Part shown: piece after piece, positions 1,520 to 26,830 of the stretch
Layout of the letters: each line of letters starts with the position of its first letter
Position numbering within the stretch: the stretch's first letter is position 1
DNA from: a virus
Direction: 5' to 3' (one strand)
Length of the DNA: 26,924 nt
IMG/VR virus record: IMGVR_UViG_3300044825_002883
Coordinates: 1-26,924 of that record
Program-made: the position numbers and the translations under genes
The notes under the pieces: model-generated
Seen by the model: the letters and a program-made list of their open reading frames with translations, nothing else
Databases searched by the model: none
Told to the model about the DNA's origin: nothing

Positions 1520-3471
1520 CAATCCTCCTCGACCACGGGCTCGTCACCGCCGCCGGTCCATTGCGTCTCAAAGTCGGCGAGGTTCGCATTGCGGCGGTAG
1601 TAGGCGCGCACGTTGGGGTCTAGCCCCTTCTCGATCGAGTCCCGCTTGCTCGTCAGGAACTTGCGCACGCGCTCGAGGTTGCTTCGTAGACGCTCCTCGC
1701 CGCCGATCGCCGTGCCGCCGCGAAGCATCCCGTCGTACATCTCCCATTCGTCTTTGCCGATCGCGGCGCCCGACTTGAGGCGCGCGAGTTCGTCCAGGAC
1801 CATGTTGATCTGAGCGTTGGTATCGGCGAGGCCGGGGCTCGCGAACTCGGGCAGCGGGCTGCCGGTGAACCCGTACCCCGCGATGTCTGGCTTCGCGAGG
1901 AGTTCATCGAGGCCGCCGATCGCGGTGTCGATCTTCTCGACATCTTTCCCGAACGCGTACGCCTGCTCTGCCAACTTCGCGTCAGCTTTCTTCGCCGACT
2001 TGCCGCCTTCGATCTCGCGCTTTAGGTCGCGCTCGGCTTGCTTGTCCTCGCCTTCGATCCCCGCCATTTGGAGCTTGAACCGCTCCTCTTCGAGCCGGGC
2101 GACCCGCTTCTCTGCGAGCTTGCGCGAGCGCGGCCCCAAGCCTCCCGTCTGCACAAGGAAGCTCTTAGGGGTAGTCGCGAGCTGCACATCGACCGCCCGC
2201 TGCTGCGCGTCGATCTGCTGCCGCACGCCTACCAGGCTCTGCTGTAGCTCCGCCTGGAGCTTGGGGACCGTGGTCTCTGCAAGCTGCGCCTCGAGCTCGC
2301 GCGCGGCGTCCTCGAGTTGCAGTTGTAGAAACATTGCATCAGCGGCCGCCTCATCGCCCGCAGCGCTGAGCAAGTCGCGGTAGAGGCCCGTTTGCTGCGC
2401 CACGCCGGCATCGGCCGCGGCCGCGGCGTCGAACGTCTGCGCCGCGTTGGCCTTCTGCGTCTCGAGGTCGCGGCCGGCGATCTCCATGAGCCGGTTGGGC
2501 ACTTCGTTGCTCCCGATCGCCCCGCCCGCAAGGGAGCCGAGGATCGCCCAGAACTTGGCGCCGCCATCCATGCTCTTGAACGAGCGGTTGGGATCGAGCT
2601 CGGGAAGGGCTTGCAGCTTCTCGCGCGCGTCGGCCTGCACGGCCTGCGCTTGATCGATCGCATCGCGCTGCACCCGGGCGAAGTCTCGGCGCTCGACATC
2701 GGCGGCGCGCGCCTCCGCGGTCGCAGCCCGGCTCGCCTCCGCGGTCTGCCGCTGCACCTCCGCGACGCGCTCGGCTTGCTGTAGCTCCGCTGCGCCGACG
2801 CCCTCGGCCGCCTGCACCTGCGCCTCGCCCATGCCGAGGTGGCCATCCCTACCGATGTCGCGCACGTCCCCGAGCGTGCCCGCCTCTTGAATCTGGCGCT
2901 GCTCGTCTTCGGTCTGCAGCTGCTGCACGCGTGCCATGTAGCTCCATTCGTCCTCGCCAGCCTCGGGCGGCGGCGGGACGAACGGCTCGAGCTGCAACTG
3001 GCCACCGCCGTAGAAGTTCTGGGCGTCGCGCTCGACGATCGGGCGCAGCGGGTTGGCCTTGCGCCCGTAGGTCACCGGAGCCCCCAGGGCATCGAGGAGG
3101 GTCCCGATCTCGCCTTCGCGCTCCGCCATGGCGGACTGCAGCGCGGAGGGTGTAGTGGCGGGCGGGGTCATTCCGGCCATCGCTGCAGACCCGAGCCCGC
3201 TGGTGGCCCGCAGCTGCGCCCGCTCCCCCGCGCGCCGCTGGTCTCCCATCGAGCGCGCGCCCGCGGGAGCGTAGGGCACGGCTGTCCCGAGCGAGATGCT
3301 TCCGCCCGTCGGCCCGCCACCGAAGGCCCCGGCGAGGTCGAAGCCCTGCGGACCAAAGCCTGCGGCAGCTGACCCGAGCCCCATGGACGGTGCGGCGGGC
3401 GGTGTGGCGTCAAGGGATGGGAGAGCCACGGAGCCACCGGGCGCACCTACTCCGATCGCGGGGCGTGCCAT
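1519..3471 (-). CDS. Putative internal virion / ejection protein, 650 aa
   Basis: The protein has 650 residues. The N-terminal 130 residues are rich in Gly, Pro and Ala and probably disordered. Residues from about 170 to 290 are dominated by Gln, Ala, Glu and Arg and should form long coiled coils. A Gly/Ala-rich hydrophobic patch (FWAILGSLAGGAIGS) lies near residue 310. A second helical region with many Glu/Lys/Gln follows, and the acidic tail ends EPVVEED. A long helical body with one Gly-zipper-like hydrophobic patch is typical of podovirus internal core proteins that leave the capsid ahead of the DNA and span the cell envelope. The start ATG overlaps the preceding stop by one base. No enzymatic motif was recognised. 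Position next to two similar proteins is the main support. Confidence 0.72.
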   Translation of the reverse strand: MARPAIGVGAPGGSVALPSLDATPPAAPSMGLGSAAAGFGPQGFDLAGAFGGGPTGGSISLGTAVPYAPAGARSMGDQRRAGERAQLRATSGLGSAAMAGMTPPATTPSALQSAMAEREGEIGTLLDALGAPVTYGRKANPLRPIVERDAQNFYGGGQLQLEPFVPPPPEAGEDEWSYMARVQQLQTEDEQRQIQEAGTLGDVRDIGRDGHLGMGEAQVQAAEGVGAAELQQAERVAEVQRQTAEASRAATAEARAADVERRDFARVQRDAIDQAQAVQADAREKLQALPELDPNRSFKSMDGGAKFWAILGSLAGGAIGSNEVPNRLMEIAGRDLETQKANAAQTFDAAAAADAGVAQQTGLYRDLLSAAGDEAAADAMFLQLQLEDAARELEAQLAETTVPKLQAELQQSLVGVRQQIDAQQRAVDVQLATTPKSFLVQTGGLGPRSRKLAEKRVARLEEERFKLQMAGIEGEDKQAERDLKREIEGGKSAKKADAKLAEQAYAFGKDVEKIDTAIGGLDELLAKPDIAGYGFTGSPLPEFASPGLADTNAQINMVLDELARLKSGAAIGKDEWEMYDGMLRGGTAIGGEERLRSNLERVRKFLTSKRDSIEKGLDPNVRAYYRRNANLADFETQWTGGGDEPVVEED

Positions 3472-21119: not shown

Positions 21120-21368
21120 ATGCAGGAACCGACCGACCGGCAAGCGCTCGCGCTGCGCCTGATCGACGAGCACGTGCGCACCGTGGGCTGCCCGCCGACG
21201 CTGCGCGAGCTCGGCGAGCTGATGACCATCCGCTCAAACAACGGGGTGAACGACCACCTCGAAGCGCTCGAAGCCAAGGGCTACATCGAGCGGAGGGACC
21301 GGCTCGCGCGGGCGATCCTGATCACCACCAAGGGGCGAGAGTACCTCGCCAGCAAGGCCACGACATGA
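21120..21368 (+). CDS. LexA-like winged-helix DNA-binding protein without protease domain, 82 aa
   Basis: The protein corresponds almost exactly to the N-terminal DNA-binding domain of LexA. It has T-x-RQ-x-x-x-L-x-L-I at the start, a GCPPTLRELGELM helix-turn-helix (about residues 23-35), a recognition region (IRSNNGVNDHLEALEAKGYIERR, 37-59) and a wing (RAILITTKG). LexA is normally about 200 residues with a C-terminal self-cleaving serine protease. That domain is absent here, so RecA-stimulated cleavage is not expected. It is the first gene of the plus-strand operon and faces two inverted repeats upstream. No clear ribosome binding site precedes the ATG, so the mRNA may be leaderless or the start weak. 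Likely role: repressor controlling the early and/or late promoters. Confidence 0.78.
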   Translation: MQEPTDRQALALRLIDEHVRTVGCPPTLRELGELMTIRSNNGVNDHLEALEAKGYIERRDRLARAILITTKGREYLASKATT

Positions 21369-21869: not shown

Positions 21870-22859
21870 ATGAACGAAGCCGACGCACTCTCTAACGTGT
21901 TCGCGACGCCGGCCAACGAAGGCCCGCCCGCGCCACGCATCGTGTACGACATGCCCGAGGCCGACTACCACGCGGACCGAACAGCGTGGAGCTGCTCTGC
22001 GCTGTGCAAGTGGCTCACCGATCGCCGCGACTTCGTGGCGTGGCTTGCGGGCGAGTTCGTCGACGCGCCCACCGAGGAGATGACTTTCGGGCGGTACAAG
22101 CACGCCGCGATCTTCGAGGGGATGGACGTCGCGCGCGAGCGCTTCGTGGTGGCCCCCGAGCGCGGCAGGGGTGGCAAGGATGCGGGGTTGCTCGTCGACC
22201 GCCGCACCAAGGCCGGCAAGGCGGCGTGGGATGCCTTCGTCGCGACGCTTGGCGGCCGCGAGTGGGTGCGGCCCGACCTCGCCGCGAACGTTCCTGCGAT
22301 GCTCGCCGCGCTCGCCGAGCATCACGAGGCGGGGCCGCTGCTCTTCCCCCCGAGCGACGGCCGTAACGAGGTGTCGATCTGGTGGACCGACGCGGCCACC
22401 GGCGCACGCCTGCGATGCCGCCTCGACCGGCTCGTGTGGCTCGACGGGGTTCCGCACGTGCCCGACCTCAAGACCACCGAGGACGCGAGCGACCGCGCGG
22501 TGGAGAAGACCACCGCCCGCTTCGCGTACCACATGAAGTGCGCGATGTACCTCGATGCGGTCGAGGCCGCTTTCGGCGTGCGCGGCGTGATGCCGCTCGT
22601 GTTCGTGGAGACCGGGCCGCGACCGCGCGTCAACGTGAAGTGGACGACCACCAGCGATCGCCCGTGCGACAAGCCGACCGAGATCGGGCGCGCTGCGTAC
22701 CGCCGGATCATCCGCGAGATCCAGGCGTGCCAGGCCGCGGGCGACTTCCGCGAGCCGTGGGAGCGCACCACCCGATGCCCGCTCACCCTGCCCGCGTGGA
22801 TGATGCGAGAGCACGAGTTCTCGGGGTCCGACGATCTCGAGGGAGCCGAGGACGCATGA
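21870..22859 (+). CDS. PD-(D/E)XK exonuclease (RecE/DUF3799-type), 329 aa
   Basis: This is a likely double-strand DNA exonuclease for phage recombination. The active-site pattern is visible: an N-terminal YHADRTAWSCSALCKWL, a conserved H in GRYKHAAIFEG (residues 74-84), E167 in NEVSIWW, D186 in CRLDRLVW, D199-x-K201 in PDLKTT, and a final helix AYHMKCAMYLDA (219-230), which takes the place of the family's YHxQxAxY motif. This is the order of the PD-(D/E)XK domain found in RecE-like phage exonucleases (PF12684-type). It is followed by a coupled gene (ATGA overlap) of a family that often accompanies it, then a small membrane peptide and a resolvase. No RecT-type annealing protein was recognised. 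The ATG at 21870 has purine-rich DNA upstream. Confidence 0.82.
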   Translation: MNEADALSNVFATPANEGPPAPRIVYDMPEADYHADRTAWSCSALCKWLTDRRDFVAWLAGEFVDAPTEEMTFGRYKHAAIFEGMDVARERFVVAPERGRGGKDAGLLVDRRTKAGKAAWDAFVATLGGREWVRPDLAANVPAMLAALAEHHEAGPLLFPPSDGRNEVSIWWTDAATGARLRCRLDRLVWLDGVPHVPDLKTTEDASDRAVEKTTARFAYHMKCAMYLDAVEAAFGVRGVMPLVFVETGPRPRVNVKWTTTSDRPCDKPTEIGRAAYRRIIREIQACQAAGDFREPWERTTRCPLTLPAWMMREHEFSGSDDLEGAEDA

Positions 22860-23242: not shown

Positions 23243-23352
23243 TCCGCTTGATTCTGTTCCCGCTGTGGGCCCCCGTGCACGTGCTCGCGTTTATCGCGGG
23301 CGTGCTCGTGGGCGAGGCGTTCGATGCGTATCGAAAGGGGTGGCGCTCGTGA
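23239..23352 (+). CDS. One-helix membrane peptide, 37 aa
   Basis: The ATG at 23239 overlaps the preceding stop (ATGA), and the stop overlaps the resolvase GTG (GTGA). The peptide (MIRLILFPLWAPVHVLAFI ... GEAFDAYRKGWRS) has one hydrophobic span (about residues 3-25) and a short basic tail. It is tightly placed in the operon, which supports that it is real. A role in membrane anchoring of the early complex or host interference cannot be told from sequence. Confidence 0.6.
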   Translation: MIRLILFPLWAPVHVLAFIAGVLVGEAFDAYRKGWRS

Positions 23353-23864
23353 TCGTCGGCATCGACCTCGGCTCTCGATCGTGCGGGTGGGCCGTGCTCT
23401 CGAGCGACGGCACGCGCCGCGACTCCGGGGCCTGGCATCTCGCGCTGCGACCGGCCACGAAGACTCGCCTGGCCGACCACCGGGCCACACGGTGGCTCGC
23501 GATGCTTGAGCGCTCGCGCGAGCTCCTCTCGAAGTGGCGACCCGCCGCCCTCGTCTACGAGCGGCCGGTGGGGCGCGCTGACGGTGGTGGGCGTGCCACG
23601 TTCCTGCTTCACGGAGGACTGCTCGCGCAGCTCGAGGTCGCGGCGTTCGAGCTCGACTACGAGCTGCCGATCGTCGAGCTCTCGCCGACCGAGTGGAAGC
23701 GCTCGATGGTCGGCAACGGCAACGCGAAAAAGCCGGCCTACATCGCCGCCGCCAACGAGCTGCACGGGCTCCACCTCGAGGCCCGCGGCAAGGGCGAGGA
23801 CGAGGCCGCCGCGCTGCTCATCGCGGGCGCGGCGATCAAGCTGGGCAAGGTGGGCGCGGCGTAG
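23349..23864 (+). CDS. RuvC-like Holliday junction resolvase, 171 aa
   Basis: The GTG at 23349 overlaps the preceding stop, with AAAGGGG eight bases upstream. A second in-frame GTG three codons earlier lies too close to that site. The RNase H-fold motifs of RuvC are in order: GIDLGSRSCGWAVL with D6, LVYERP with E71, NGNAKKPAYIAAA (a Lys-rich contact, about 123-135), and GEDEAAALLIAGAA with D151. The usual second Asp of the last motif (D-x-x-D) reads Ala154 here. The length is normal for RuvC (about 170 residues). It would resolve branched DNA during recombination or trim concatemers before packaging. It lies after the recombination genes and just before the replication region. Confidence 0.78.
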   Translation: MIVGIDLGSRSCGWAVLSSDGTRRDSGAWHLALRPATKTRLADHRATRWLAMLERSRELLSKWRPAALVYERPVGRADGGGRATFLLHGGLLAQLEVAAFELDYELPIVELSPTEWKRSMVGNGNAKKPAYIAAANELHGLHLEARGKGEDEAAALLIAGAAIKLGKVGAA

Positions 23865-23881
23865 CACGCGTGTCTGAGTAC

Positions 23882-23911
23882 GTTACGGTAACACTTGCGC
23901 AGGTTGGTAAC
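23882..23911. repeat. GTTAC/GTAAC cluster upstream of the replication initiator gene
   Basis: Three copies of the pentamer lie here: GTTAC at 23882-23886 and GTAAC at 23888-23892 and 23907-23911. The first two form the palindrome GTTAC-G-GTAAC. The cluster lies 20-49 bases before the initiator ATG (23931), so binding of the initiator would probably repress its own gene. The motif is the same as in the two clusters inside the gene. Confidence 0.6.
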
Positions 23912-23930
23912 GCCTGATAGGGTGGCGCCG

Positions 23931-26126
23931 ATGCCGAACGGTTTCGTCAAGGTCTACAGCTCCATCACGCGCTCGTCGATCTGGCTCGAAGACCACGCCA
24001 CGCGGCTGGTCTGGATCACGATGCTCTGCGAGGCGGACCCCGAGGGCATCGTGCGGGCGAGCGTCCGCGGTCTCGCTCATGTAGCCAGGGTCTCCCCCGA
24101 CGAATGCGAGCGCGCGATCGAAATCCTGAGCAACCCCGATCCCGACAGCCGCACCGCTGACCACGATGGACGGCGAATCGAGAAGGTTGACGGCGGCTGG
24201 CTGCTGCTGAACTACCGCCGTTACCGCGAGATGCGCACGCAGCACCAAGCGAACACCGCTGCCAGGGTGCGCAAGCACCGCGCCTTGCGAAAGAGCAAGG
24301 CTGTTACATGTAACGATGTAACGATAGAAGAAGAAGAAGAAGAAGAACTTAACCGCACCCCTACAATTCCCCAAACCCGGGGAATCCGTAACACCGGTAA
24401 CGTTACGTGTAACGACGACTATGCCAGGGTCCACGAGCAGAGCCCGATGGGGCTTGGAGGTGAGCGAGATGACGACAGCGAAGGCGATCAGGGTCGACCG
24501 CAAGGACGTTCCGGCGGACGAGCGCACGAACGAGAGCCTGCGGGAACACATGGTGCGATGGCAGCGCAAGGTGAAGTTCTCGGCGGAGGAGATCGCAGCG
24601 ATCCTCGACGACGTGGGGTGGATCCTGGCTCACCGCTACCGCGAGACGTCCTCCGTGCCGATCGAGGAGTGGGGCGCCCGCATCATGGCGGAGCTGATGA
24701 TCAACGAGGATCGCAAGGCCACCAAGGAGCACGGGGAGCCGGACTTGACCCCGTGGCTCGACGCGATGGACAGCAAGGGGCCAGCGCCGGAGACATAGCC
24801 CCCCGCCCCCGTGAGCCCGCCCCGGCGGCGCTCGATGGTGTGAGAGCCAGCGGGGGCACTGCGGCGAGTGAGCCGCGAGAGGAACACGATGGTGATACGA
24901 GACCAGATAGCGAACGTGGTGACATGCTCGGCGGCGTTGGCCCGCGAGTTCACCTACCACCCACCGCAGGGCGACCAGGGCCAGCGGTACCAGGAGATCA
25001 GCATCCTCGAGTAGAGGCACAAGGAGACGACTATGCAGGAACCAATCACGGACGAAGAGAGCAGGGAGATCAGGGCCGCGCTGGAAGTAGCCAGCGAACA
25101 ACTCGAGAAGGTCCTCAAGATCGCGACGGCGCCGATGGCGGCGACGACAGACGAACTGGAACGGATGCGACTCGGAGCACTGGGCCAGCACCACGCGGAC
25201 GAGCTGGTGAGGCTCTTCCTGGTGGTGGCGGCTGGATACCTGGGTCTCGGCGCAGCGGCGGGGATGGCAGGGATAGCCGACCGGAGGATGGCAGTGCAGG
25301 CGATCCGAAACGCACACTTCCTACTCCCGCTTCTCGACCACGATGGCGGCGTGATGCCGAAGCTTGGCAGATGAGCGGCCCCACGCCGGGCCCGGGCGAG
25401 AGCCCACGAGCGGCAGGAGGAGATGACGATGCTGACGACACGCGAGATGCATTCGATGATCCGGGAGCCGAGGTTCTAGATGCGAACGTGGATGCGGTGG
25501 GGCCTGTTCTCGTGGCAGCGCACCGACGCGGGGGTGATGCTGATGCTGCTCCAGCTCGACCGGGACGCGGCGCGAGACGAGTGGCCGCCATGGAAGACGC
25601 GACGGAAGCTCTGACCCTCGCACCCGTCGAGCCGAAGCTCGCGAAGAAGCGGGCGAAGCGGGCGGGCGAGGTGACGCCCGAGCGCGTGGCGGTGCTCGTG
25701 GCTGTGTACCAGGCGCTGGGAACAGCGCGGCTACAGGCGGAGATGCCGGCCCCCCACGCCGTGCCCTACACGCTCCGCAAGGCGCACGAGGACGGCACGA
25801 TCCCAGAGCTCACCGCCGACTCGCGCGCGCTACTGCGGTGCCTCGAGCAGCTCGAGGCCGGGGCGCACGGCGAGCCTATGACCCTCGCCGACGCGGAAAC
25901 GCTTCTCGTCGCCACCGTGCGCGCCAAGGTGCACGAGCACCGGCAGCGAGACGACGACTTTTCAGGTGGCAAGCACGCCACGATCGGCGCGCTCGTGGTG
26001 AAAAGCAACTTCGCCAAGTGGATCGCCGCTGGCCGCGCGTGGCTTGCCTCGGGTGGCAGGCCGGCAGCGGCACCGAGCAAGCGCGGCGGGGCCTTCACGC
26101 CACGCGGGGAGTACACCGAGCTATGA
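23931..26126 (+). CDS. Replication initiator (replisome organiser); N-terminal domain firm, frame open to 26126
   Basis: Residues 1-100 (MPNGFVKVYSSITRSSIWL, then TRLVWITMLCEADPEGIVRAS, VRGLAHVARVSPDECERAIEIL, VDGGWLLLNYRRYRE) are the winged-helix domain of phage replisome organisers, equivalent to the DNA-binding part of lambda O. Residues 100-125 are basic. Residues 124-161 contain VTCNDVT, seven Glu and GNVTCND, which are encoded by the iterons and the GAA tract. From about residue 165 the frame looks like a shadow (Gly/Arg/Asp-rich) because other genes use the same DNA. There is no in-frame stop until 26126, giving a formal product of 731 residues. The real protein may end near 24463, where another frame has a TGA just before the next gene; this would need a frameshift or a sequencing error. 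A separate start at 25590 in this frame is listed below. Confidence 0.6.
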   Translation: MPNGFVKVYSSITRSSIWLEDHATRLVWITMLCEADPEGIVRASVRGLAHVARVSPDECERAIEILSNPDPDSRTADHDGRRIEKVDGGWLLLNYRRYREMRTQHQANTAARVRKHRALRKSKAVTCNDVTIEEEEEEELNRTPTIPQTRGIRNTGNVTCNDDYARVHEQSPMGLGGERDDDSEGDQGRPQGRSGGRAHEREPAGTHGAMAAQGEVLGGGDRSDPRRRGVDPGSPLPRDVLRADRGVGRPHHGGADDQRGSQGHQGARGAGLDPVARRDGQQGASAGDIAPRPREPAPAALDGVRASGGTAASEPREEHDGDTRPDSERGDMLGGVGPRVHLPPTAGRPGPAVPGDQHPRVEAQGDDYAGTNHGRREQGDQGRAGSSQRTTREGPQDRDGADGGDDRRTGTDATRSTGPAPRGRAGEALPGGGGWIPGSRRSGGDGRDSRPEDGSAGDPKRTLPTPASRPRWRRDAEAWQMSGPTPGPGESPRAAGGDDDADDTRDAFDDPGAEVLDANVDAVGPVLVAAHRRGGDADAAPARPGRGARRVAAMEDATEALTLAPVEPKLAKKRAKRAGEVTPERVAVLVAVYQALGTARLQAEMPAPHAVPYTLRKAHEDGTIPELTADSRALLRCLEQLEAGAHGEPMTLADAETLLVATVRAKVHEHRQRDDDFSGGKHATIGALVVKSNFAKWIAAGRAWLASGGRPAAAPSKRGGAFTPRGEYTEL
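24303..24414. other. Probable phage replication origin with iterons, inside the initiator gene
   Basis: Seven GTAAC/GTTAC pentamers lie in 112 bases in two clusters. The left cluster (24303-24323) contains GTTACATGTAAC, a perfect 12-base palindrome, and two tandem copies of ATGTAACG (24308-24315, 24316-24323). The right cluster (24388-24414) contains GTAAC, GTAACGTTAC (10-base palindrome) and GTGTAACG. Between them are the (GAA)7 tract and AT-rich DNA. Iterons embedded in an initiator gene next to an asymmetric purine-rich AT region is the arrangement of the lambda origin in gene O. Origin function is inferred. Confidence 0.68.
24327..24347 (+). repeat. (GAA)7 purine tract, candidate DNA-unwinding element
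   Basis: Seven perfect GAA units are followed by CTTAACCGCACCCCTACAATTCCCCAAA, the most AT-rich stretch of the early region. In the initiator frame it encodes seven Glu. Strand-asymmetric purine and low-melting DNA beside iterons suggests duplex opening. Unit-length changes would keep the frame. Confidence 0.65.
24469..24798 (+). CDS. Unknown protein, 109 aa, overlapping the initiator frame
   Basis: The ATG at 24469 has GGAGG eight bases upstream. An earlier in-frame ATG at 24421 lacks a ribosome binding site. The frame is +1 relative to the initiator and has high GC in third positions, as in other genes here. The protein (MTTAKAIRVDRKDVPADERTNESLREHMVRWQRKVKFSAEEIAAILDDVGWILAHRYRE...) is charged and mostly helical, with no membrane segment. 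It ends before a 90-base gap (24799-24888) in which I see nothing. I recognise no family. Location between initiator and loader suggests a replication accessory role, which is inference only. Confidence 0.7.
   Translation: MTTAKAIRVDRKDVPADERTNESLREHMVRWQRKVKFSAEEIAAILDDVGWILAHRYRETSSVPIEEWGARIMAELMINEDRKATKEHGEPDLTPWLDAMDSKGPAPET
24889..25014 (+). CDS. Small unknown protein, 41 aa
   Basis: The ATG at 24889 follows GAGAGGA at suitable spacing, and the stop is TAG 25012-25014. It encodes MVIRDQIANVVTCSAALAREF, then YHPPQGDQGQRYQEISILE. Third codon positions are mostly G or C, in the same frame as its neighbours at 24469 and 25033, and it fills an otherwise empty gap. No family recognised. Confidence 0.5.
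   Translation: MVIRDQIANVVTCSAALAREFTYHPPQGDQGQRYQEISILE
25033..25374 (+). CDS. Unknown protein with hydrophobic segment, 113 aa
   Basis: The ATG at 25033 has AAGGAG six bases upstream, a strong site. The N-terminal half is helical and charged (ITDEESREIRAALEVASEQLEKVLKIATAPM). Residues 59-82 are hydrophobic and Gly/Ala-rich (LVRLFLVVAAGYLGLGAAAGMAGI), possibly membrane-associated or a buried helical hairpin. A helical end follows (MAVQAIRNAHFLLPLLDHDGG). No family recognised. The ATG of the initiator-frame continuation at 25371 overlaps its stop (ATGA). Confidence 0.66.
   Translation: MQEPITDEESREIRAALEVASEQLEKVLKIATAPMAATTDELERMRLGALGQHHADELVRLFLVVAAGYLGLGAAAGMAGIADRRMAVQAIRNAHFLLPLLDHDGGVMPKLGR
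25429..25479 (+). CDS. Possible leader peptide, 16 aa
   Basis: A perfect AGGAGG (25415-25420) lies eight bases before ATG 25429 (MLTTREMHSMIREPRF, stop TAG 25477-25479). An in-frame ATG at 25423 is too close to the site. The stop is followed directly by the ATG of the next small gene, so it could serve mainly to deliver ribosomes. It is short, so the call is tentative. Confidence 0.33.
   Translation: MLTTREMHSMIREPRF
25480..25614 (+). CDS. Small Trp-rich protein, 44 aa
   Basis: The ATG at 25480 directly follows the TAG of the preceding mini-ORF and ends at TGA 25612-25614, overlapping the next gene start by 25 bases. The sequence (MRTWMRWGLFSWQRTDAGVM, then LMLLQLDRDAARDEWPPW, basic end) has five Trp. 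Codons are strongly GC-ending. No family recognised. Confidence 0.45.
   Translation: MRTWMRWGLFSWQRTDAGVMLMLLQLDRDAARDEWPPWKTRRKL
25590..26126 (+). CDS. Unknown protein before the helicase loader, 178 aa (alternative start in the initiator frame)
   Basis: From ATG 25590 the long open frame again has real coding character. There is a basic N-terminus (KLAKKRAKRAGEVTPERVAVLVAVYQAL), then TLRKAHEDGTIPELTADSRALLRCLEQLEAG, ADAETLLVATVRAKVHEHRQRDDDFSGGKHATIGALVVKSNFAKWIAAGRAWLA, and a basic Gly/Ala tail. The stop overlaps the loader start (ATGA). A longer version from ATG 25371 (251 residues) would start at an ATGA overlap, but its extra codons look like a shadow of the small genes. It could be a separate helicase-loading partner or the displaced C-terminal part of the initiator. 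No ribosome binding site of note. No family recognised. Confidence 0.6.
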   Translation: MEDATEALTLAPVEPKLAKKRAKRAGEVTPERVAVLVAVYQALGTARLQAEMPAPHAVPYTLRKAHEDGTIPELTADSRALLRCLEQLEAGAHGEPMTLADAETLLVATVRAKVHEHRQRDDDFSGGKHATIGALVVKSNFAKWIAAGRAWLASGGRPAAAPSKRGGAFTPRGEYTEL

Positions 26127-26830
26127 GCGCCAACCTCACCCCGCCCACCCCGTTGTGGGAGCGCGTGCAGCAGCCGCTCCTCGACACCCACGCGATGACG
26201 ACGGCGCGCGCGTGGCTGGCCTCAGACGCGTGGGGGCTCCTCATGCTCGGCGGGGTTGGGCGCGGGAAGAGCTTGGCCGCCGCGTGGCTGTGGCTTCGCC
26301 TGCGCGGGCTCGACCTCGCCGAAGCTGACGCCCTCCATCGGCAGCGCCGCGGCGTGCTGTGGCTCCGTGCTCGCGTGCTGCAGAACCTCGAATGGAACGA
26401 GCGCGCCGACGTGCTCCGCCGGTGCGCCGTGGCCTTCGGGCTCGTGGTCGACGAACTCGGCGGCGAGGACCAGCGCACCGGCGAGGCGCTCTCCGACCTC
26501 ATCGAACAGCGGGGCGACGAACAGCGCCGGACCGTCATCACGACGAACCTCGAGCCCGCCCGCTTCCTCGAGCGCTACGGGGATCGGCTGGTCTCGCGCT
26601 TGCGCGCGGGCGGCATCACGAGCAAGGGCGGCGCTCGGTGGGCGGTGTCGGTGCAGGGGGCCGACCTGCGCGGCGCCGAGGTGCCACAGGCAGAGCCCGA
26701 CACCATTGAGGAGGGCCGGCCAGCGTCGCCCGAGTTCATGGCGCGCGAGCTCGCCAAGGAGGCCACCGATGTGGCGGCCATGCTTCAACCGGTTGTGGAG
26801 GCCCGACGGGCCGCAGGGAGTGAGGGGTGA
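26123..26830 (+). CDS. DnaC-like helicase loader ATPase, 235 aa
   Basis: The ATG at 26123 overlaps the preceding stop (ATGA). The AAA+ motifs are clear: Walker A GGVGRGKS (43-50), Walker B FGLVVDELG (D110-E111), sensor I TVITTNLEP (138-145), and an arginine-rich box (RYGDRLVSRLR, 151-161), as in DnaC/IstB-type loaders. It would place the host replicative helicase at the phage origin, the role of DnaC or lambda P. The N-terminal 40 residues are short, and no zinc site is present. The C-terminal 65 residues are charged, without known motif. It ends with TGATG overlap to the next gene. Confidence 0.83.
   Translation: MSANLTPPTPLWERVQQPLLDTHAMTTARAWLASDAWGLLMLGGVGRGKSLAAAWLWLRLRGLDLAEADALHRQRRGVLWLRARVLQNLEWNERADVLRRCAVAFGLVVDELGGEDQRTGEALSDLIEQRGDEQRRTVITTNLEPARFLERYGDRLVSRLRAGGITSKGGARWAVSVQGADLRGAEVPQAEPDTIEEGRPASPEFMARELAKEATDVAAMLQPVVEARRAAGSEG

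Follow-up and report, generated by a model that had tools for sequence, protein, structure and literature searches.

A probable lambda-type replication origin with a putative operator upstream, embedded in the initiator gene of an IMG/VR virus and set out alike in its relatives

Iteron plasmids carry an inverted operator before the initiator gene, and their origin as a rule lies outside the rep gene. The iterons of such plasmids (RK2, P1, F and others) stand in helical phase (PMC5043065), and a winged-helix plasmid Rep protein binds both the iterons and, on one strand of the unwinding element, a set of repeats that are all required (PMC4081077). In phage lambda, iterons, a purine-rich asymmetric tract and an inverted repeat follow one another within the initiator gene, with the loader gene downstream (PMC7466680, PMC5043065), and lambdoid O proteins bind the iterons and single strands of the AT-rich region, both of which lie in the middle of O (PMC7466680). 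An origin inside an initiator gene is a known kind of arrangement because SPP1 oriL lies in gene 38, where direct repeats and an AT-rich unwinding element sit in the gene of the origin-binding protein and the loader and helicase are separate (PMC6316719), and P1 oriL probably lies in repL, where a special AT-rich stretch is required and synonymous changes impair replication (PMC9948254). Here we describe a stretch of 26,924 nucleotides from a virus (IMG/VR record IMGVR_UViG_3300044825_002883, positions 1 to 26,924; 26.9 kb with 69% GC, called the window below), for which a reading of the letters without database searches (the sequence-only reading) had proposed a lambda-like origin built into the gene of a replisome-organiser-type protein. 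From its sequence and that of its relatives, we consider that positions 23882-24413 probably (at roughly 0.87) hold both the control region and the origin of a phage replicon, that is, a lambda-type origin with an autoregulatory operator that belongs to an initiator family without detectable lambda O homology.

In the window as a whole, we found that GTAAC/GTTAC words are not especially numerous (13 as compared to 9.7 expected); their density is far from uniform, with 11 of the 13 inside 23882-24413, which is 2% of the window length. GTAAC ranks first for clustering among the 512 strand-collapsed pentamers at both scanning widths used (Poisson p, uncorrected for the 512 words tried, 3e-13 at 112 bp and 7e-15 at 535 bp). 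Seven of these words had been read as two clusters around a (GAA)7 tract, and we confirmed their positions, with starts at 24303, 24310 and 24318 on the left and at 24388, 24397, 24402 and 24409 on the right. The tandem 8-mers (ATGTAACG, starting at 24308 and 24316) and the perfect palindromes of 12 and 10 bases (GTTACATGTAAC and GTAACGTTAC) were all located, and the iterons encode the peptides VTCNDVT and GNVTCND, as had been stated. The sequence-only reading had overlooked an interrupted dyad in the right cluster (GTTACgtGTAAC), an isolated GTAAC/GTTAC site at 24220, three further sites that precede the ATG at 23931 (the pair GTTACgGTAAC and a single GTAAC), and a hairpin between the tract and the right cluster, where the folding of the surrounding stretch beats 193 of 200 shuffles. 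AT-rich DNA had been described between the clusters, and this holds at the tract itself, since the lowest-GC 50-mer of the window starts at 24302 (32% as compared to 69%) and contains (GAA)7, but not for the segment from the tract to the right cluster, which is C-rich. The elements of an embedded origin are thus found in the window: repeats of one word within the gene, an asymmetric tract, an inverted repeat beyond the tract, and a loader gene downstream. The sequence of lambda gene O shows the same order, with four iterons, then ACACAAAAGACACTATTACAAAAGAAAAAAGAAAAG, then the inverted repeat ATTCGTCAGA-GAAT-TCTGGCGAAT, and the proposed parallel to lambda is supported.

Table 1. Features of the putative control and origin region and of the genes associated with it (positions in the window; a point in the strand column means no strand assigned).
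Feature	Position	Strand	Remarks
Two inverted iterons before the initiator gene, GTTACgGTAAC; probable operator	23882..23892	.	inverted pairs whose starts are 6 apart are also found upstream in relatives
Lone GTAAC iteron, between the operator dyad and the ATG	23907..23911	+	
Replication initiator gene, part with this frame's coding signature	23931..24420	+	predicted winged-helix domain (first 101 residues) and origin-holding linker
Left iteron cluster	24303..24322	.	palindrome GTTACATGTAAC 24303-24314 and GTAAC 24318-24322; two tandem ATGTAACG inside
(GAA)7 simple-repeat tract	24327..24347	+	purine strand is the coding strand; probable unwinding or single-strand element
Hairpin ATTCCCC-AAACCC-GGGGAAT	24366..24385	.	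7-bp stem, 6-nt loop; relatives carry a position-specific hairpin
Right iteron cluster	24388..24413	.	GTAAC 24388; palindrome GTAACGTTAC 24397-24406; GTTACgtGTAAC 24402-24413
DnaC-like helicase loader gene	26123..26830	+	phrog_50 E 2.5e-13; phrog_3277 E 5.6e-13

The gene that begins at 23931 encodes what is, by its predicted fold, a winged-helix replication initiator. Its first 101 residues align with 24 relatives at 41-60% identity and are predicted with a confidence (predicted local distance difference test, pLDDT) of 90. The predicted winged helix is similar to that of CRP-type regulators (Z up to 8.4, root mean square deviation 2.2-2.3 over 66-69 residues), where the label comes from a second-look structural alignment and a Z near 8 indicates a common fold only; Foldseek gave no match at E<=0.001. 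In profile searches, the initiator matches phage replication families only, and weakly (PHROG E 0.001-0.02, the best being phrog_2509 at E 0.0012), and these are replication initiation or loader families other than lambda O. There was no Pfam match at E<=1, and hence no Rep family match in Pfam, and no NCBIfam match, and homology to lambda O was not detected in either database. Named phages gave no match to the window protein, and the relative L092 matches them mainly through its C-terminal part. Because Pfam and NCBIfam gave no match, we consider that the layout would work like that of lambda while the protein is not of the lambda O family. The DnaC-like loader that had been read downstream is present (Table 1), about 1.7 kb from the origin with small genes between, and not adjacent as lambda P is.

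To compare the layout across relatives, we used protein searches that yielded 81 non-redundant loci with the window among them, which lie in viral contigs or in genome bins labelled Gemmatimonadota, Polyangiaceae, Proteobacteria, Verrucomicrobia and others; start codons in the relatives were guessed as the nearest suitable one. In most loci, we found the same order directly behind the winged-helix domain: an iteron cluster, then a simple-repeat tract, then a hairpin. The iterons have the form tGTNNN, with words that vary by phage (GTAAC, GTAGA, GTCCC, GTCAC, GTCCA, GTCAA, GTCGG and more), and a cluster precedes the tract at a nominal p<1e-4 in 73 of the 81 loci. GTAAC had been thought distinctive for this phage; it is in fact the iteron that the family uses most often (16 of about 70 assignable members). 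When the linker word of each locus was counted in the 110 nt upstream of the start codon, 94 copies were found as compared to 5.4 expected, and 43 of 81 loci have it there. Neighbouring pairs in the linker are mostly direct repeats (187 of 231, with 44 inverted), and 140 of the 187 direct pairs have a spacing of 9, 10 or 11 bp and minor groups lie at 20-21 and near 30, which places one site per helical turn. In contrast, 36 of 68 upstream pairs are inverted, and their starts are 13 apart in 15 cases and 6 apart in 9; the orientation contrast between upstream and linker pairs has a Fisher p of 1e-7, and the upstream pair of the window has a start spacing of 6. In 62 of 81 loci, a tract was found at p<=0.01 as compared to segments drawn at random from the same locus; its units are mostly (GCAGAR)n, also (GAA)n, (GATACA)n, (CTCAGG)n and (GAAGGA)n, and often not AT-rich. 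When we computed a hairpin energy profile (RNA parameters, folding z corrected for GC) in 61 loci, the mean z was -0.99 at 0-50 nt after the tract and about -0.3 to +0.7 everywhere else between offsets -300 and +690.

Some of these loci stand out individually. The linker of L082 holds seven TGTCCC copies, among the longest plain arrays. One relative, L098, belongs to a prophage of Thermomonas sp. S9. In L004, L024, L028 and L052, the tract lies behind the winged-helix domain in reverse-complement orientation, as (GCATCT)n or (TATCTG)n. The same initiator (L089 and L090) is found near both ends of one 60-kb Gemmatimonadota contig (JAOTVV010000018.1), which may be a tandem prophage or the assembly of a circular phage, and it is also present in the viral contig L009.

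We also scanned IMG/VR for (GCAGAR)4 as DNA, without protein information, and used the same repeat read backwards as a control. Among the matches listed, the tract lies inside a family initiator, as recognized by a profile hidden Markov model (HMM), in 52 of 120 contigs as compared to 1 of 120 for the control, and 39 independent loci were left after loci already used and near-duplicates had been dropped. In this set, an iteron word is present at p<1e-3 in 31 of 39 loci, 43 of the 94 direct gaps measure 10 bp and 71 of them 9-11 bp, upstream sites number 30 as compared to 4.7 expected, and the hairpin dip is again found 0-50 nt after the tract (z -0.92). A crude iteron test on the two scan sets proved unspecific (77 versus 49 of 120 among the matches listed), because low-complexity neighbours score in the control too, and the profile-HMM count was used in its place; PHROG counts, made for 60 members per set, scattered too widely for a decision, and a few initiators are found in the control as well. 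Four loci (L117, L139, L181 and L182) encode proteins outside the family HMM and carry a (GCAGAR)n tract with repeats before it, which suggests that the tract crosses initiator families. When six named phage initiators were inspected, the tract was clear in SAC and Rousseau and absent or different in SfV, Aurca01, CSP3 and SaltyDalty. The initiators of Xanthomonas phage SAC and Brevibacterium phage Rousseau lie outside the family and have other N-termini; they show repeats ahead of their tracts, (AGAACA)n and (CAGAGA)n.

The repeats of most loci can be read in frame as a linker that joins two domains, and one could suppose that they exist for the sake of the protein, as a flexible, often acidic linker (E7, (AE)n) spread by slippage, with the iterons as by-products of repeated peptide. 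We regard this as very unlikely. Alanine codons in the tracts are GCA in 197 of 200 cases as compared to 293 of 1608 elsewhere in the same proteins, and they stay fixed to GCA in GC-rich genomes (73 of 73 as compared to 96 of 665 elsewhere, in loci with at least 60% GC). Spacings of 10 and 11 bp shift the frame, and only 37 of 140 direct gaps are multiples of three in the stricter set. Tracts occur in both orientations and encode AE, TD, SG, EG, SV, SAS, TQ or PT, and the same iteron word is found again outside the gene. In five loci, the initiator frame stops too early to read the tract: in L024, L030 and L052 it ends ahead of both iterons and tract, in L044 and L084 ahead of the tract. Translation of the tract from a small overlapping frame is still conceivable in L024 and L052. 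At L007 (1060-1170), tract and iterons lie upstream of the initiator gene, where a 21-codon frame (MKALLLTLLSASASASACVNR) overlaps the tract, which brings to six the loci in which the initiator open reading frame (ORF) does not cover the whole origin. Taken together, these data show that selection acts on the DNA and not on the peptide.

A DNA-level function could also be that of an operator array only, in which an autoregulator binds GTAAC at its promoter and inside its gene while replication starts elsewhere. The upstream inverted pairs do resemble an operator, and a winged helix like that of CRP-type regulators would suit such a protein; however, an operator needs neither a helically phased direct array nor a tract and hairpin in fixed order, the protein and its relatives match phage replication initiation families, and a loader gene lies downstream in the window, which makes this explanation an unlikely one. 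Still less can be said for some other cis site, for partition, packaging or recombination, lying in the gene by chance. Palindromic repeats can in general serve as partition or packaging signals, but the location is tied to the initiator's own gene in more than 100 loci, and no partition gene was found among the scanned neighbour genes, so that we consider it highly improbable.

Several observations speak against a lambda-type origin in the window. Its iterons lack 10-bp phasing (starts 7 and 8 bp apart on the left and 9, 5 and 7 bp on the right), 4 of the 7 linker iterons lie beyond the hairpin, unlike in nearly all relatives, and the hairpin itself is weak in the position profile (z -0.3). 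No consensus promoter was found in a promoter and terminator scan of 23700-24600, which returned nothing, and the initiator frame is open without a stop until 26126 (731 codons, 23931-26126). Cumulative GC skew, which had been suggested as a check, has no switch at 24.3 kb; this is uninformative because skew tracks gene orientation and the contig is a fragment. With regard to the family, the relatives share ancestry and their counts are not independent events, and the iteron words were picked as the best of many, which makes their own p-values optimistic and is why the upstream, spacing, hairpin and codon tests carry most weight; the first two are less sensitive to how the word was picked. The window is best called a variant in the family, with iterons on both sides of tract and hairpin, no 10-bp phasing, and a trinucleotide tract unlike that of most relatives. 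Besides the window, at least two sites behind the tract are found only in L033, L004 and L084, and a cluster behind the hairpin is rare. L033 (approximately 3150-3300) has about 12 GTCAC/GTGAC iterons after the tract instead of before it.

If the region is a lambda-type origin, the N-terminal winged helix of the initiator would recognize tGTAACg. On the upstream inverted pair, together with the site at 23907, the initiator would probably repress its own gene, and by analogy the upstream dyad suggests autoregulation as in iteron plasmids. On the linker iterons, it would assemble into a nucleoprotein complex and so open the asymmetric tract next to them, which is (GAA)7 in the window and (GCAGAR)n in most relatives; the DnaC-like loader would then bring the helicase to the exposed strand, the hairpin past the tract may mark or hold the far edge of the opened region, and replication would start within the 23882-24413 region. 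For the tract, we favour a model in which its repeats are bound on one strand, as by plasmid winged-helix Rep proteins at the unwinding element. The DnaA-trio/DnaD element of B. subtilis oriC is likewise a short-period repeat by initiator boxes, read single-stranded for opening and for loader recruitment (PMC10201434). By inspection, its paired TnnT agrees with (GAA)n and (GCAGAA)n when their complement is read, whereas the complement of (GCAGAG)n or (GATACA)n lacks it, and we rejected an identification of the tract with this motif since it fits some tract units only. Covariation between winged helix and iteron gave columns 40, 14, 13, 101 and 42 at the top, from seven usable classes with phylogeny uncontrolled, and we do not claim a recognition code.

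As compared to lambda, the family differs in its shared word of about 6 bp, mostly repeated directly at 9-11 bp in the relatives, in a tract that is a tri- or hexanucleotide repeat and often not AT-rich, in an initiator without detectable O homology, and in iteron copies that also lie upstream of the gene. The family shares phased direct iterons and inverted, operator-like upstream pairs with iteron plasmids, whereas the window has the upstream dyad with iterons that are not phased at 10 bp. The window also differs from these plasmids in having no Rep family match and no DnaA box near the origin; two one-mismatch matches to the box were found in the whole window, neither less than 2.6 kb away. 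SPP1 oriL and P1 oriL are likened by description, and the portions of the sources available describe neither a hairpin nor upstream iterons for SPP1 (PMC6316719) and no iteron array for P1 oriL (PMC9948254).

A few model phages are known to keep their origin within the initiator gene, and here the layout appears as a conserved rule in about 120 phage and prophage loci, in which the iterons vary from phage to phage around a fixed tGT and the simple-repeat tract is often not AT-rich. Such a rule would make origins of uncultured phages predictable from sequence, and the family offers natural material on how a small winged helix changes its DNA word. The question raised is what reads the hexanucleotide tract, of which we found no description in the open-access literature, although priority is uncertain. 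At rather less than even odds, the tract might serve phage origins in general as a strand-specific loading element, the phage equivalent of the DnaA-trio/DnaD element, and be spread over unrelated initiator families (SAC and Rousseau included), so that origins could be found by rule (phased iterons, tract, hairpin) without the letters of the iterons.

Around the origin of the window, codon-position GC indicates that from about 24420 to 25600 another frame codes, not that of the initiator, and a further gene start with a good ribosome-binding site lies at 24469. The long open initiator frame possibly reflects a contig indel, a frameshift or a stopless overlap. The products of 24421-24798, of 25590-26126 and of the open frame between them gave no match to the C-termini of the relatives. 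Just before the loader, the ORF at 25590-26126 is in the initiator's frame and has a coding-like GC pattern without a family match; its product could be an adaptor in its own right, or the C-terminal part of the initiator in a displaced position. Upstream of the initiator lie early genes, with a LexA-type DNA-binding domain at 21120-21368, an exonuclease VIII-like product at 21870-22859 and a RuvC-like resolvase at 23352-23864.

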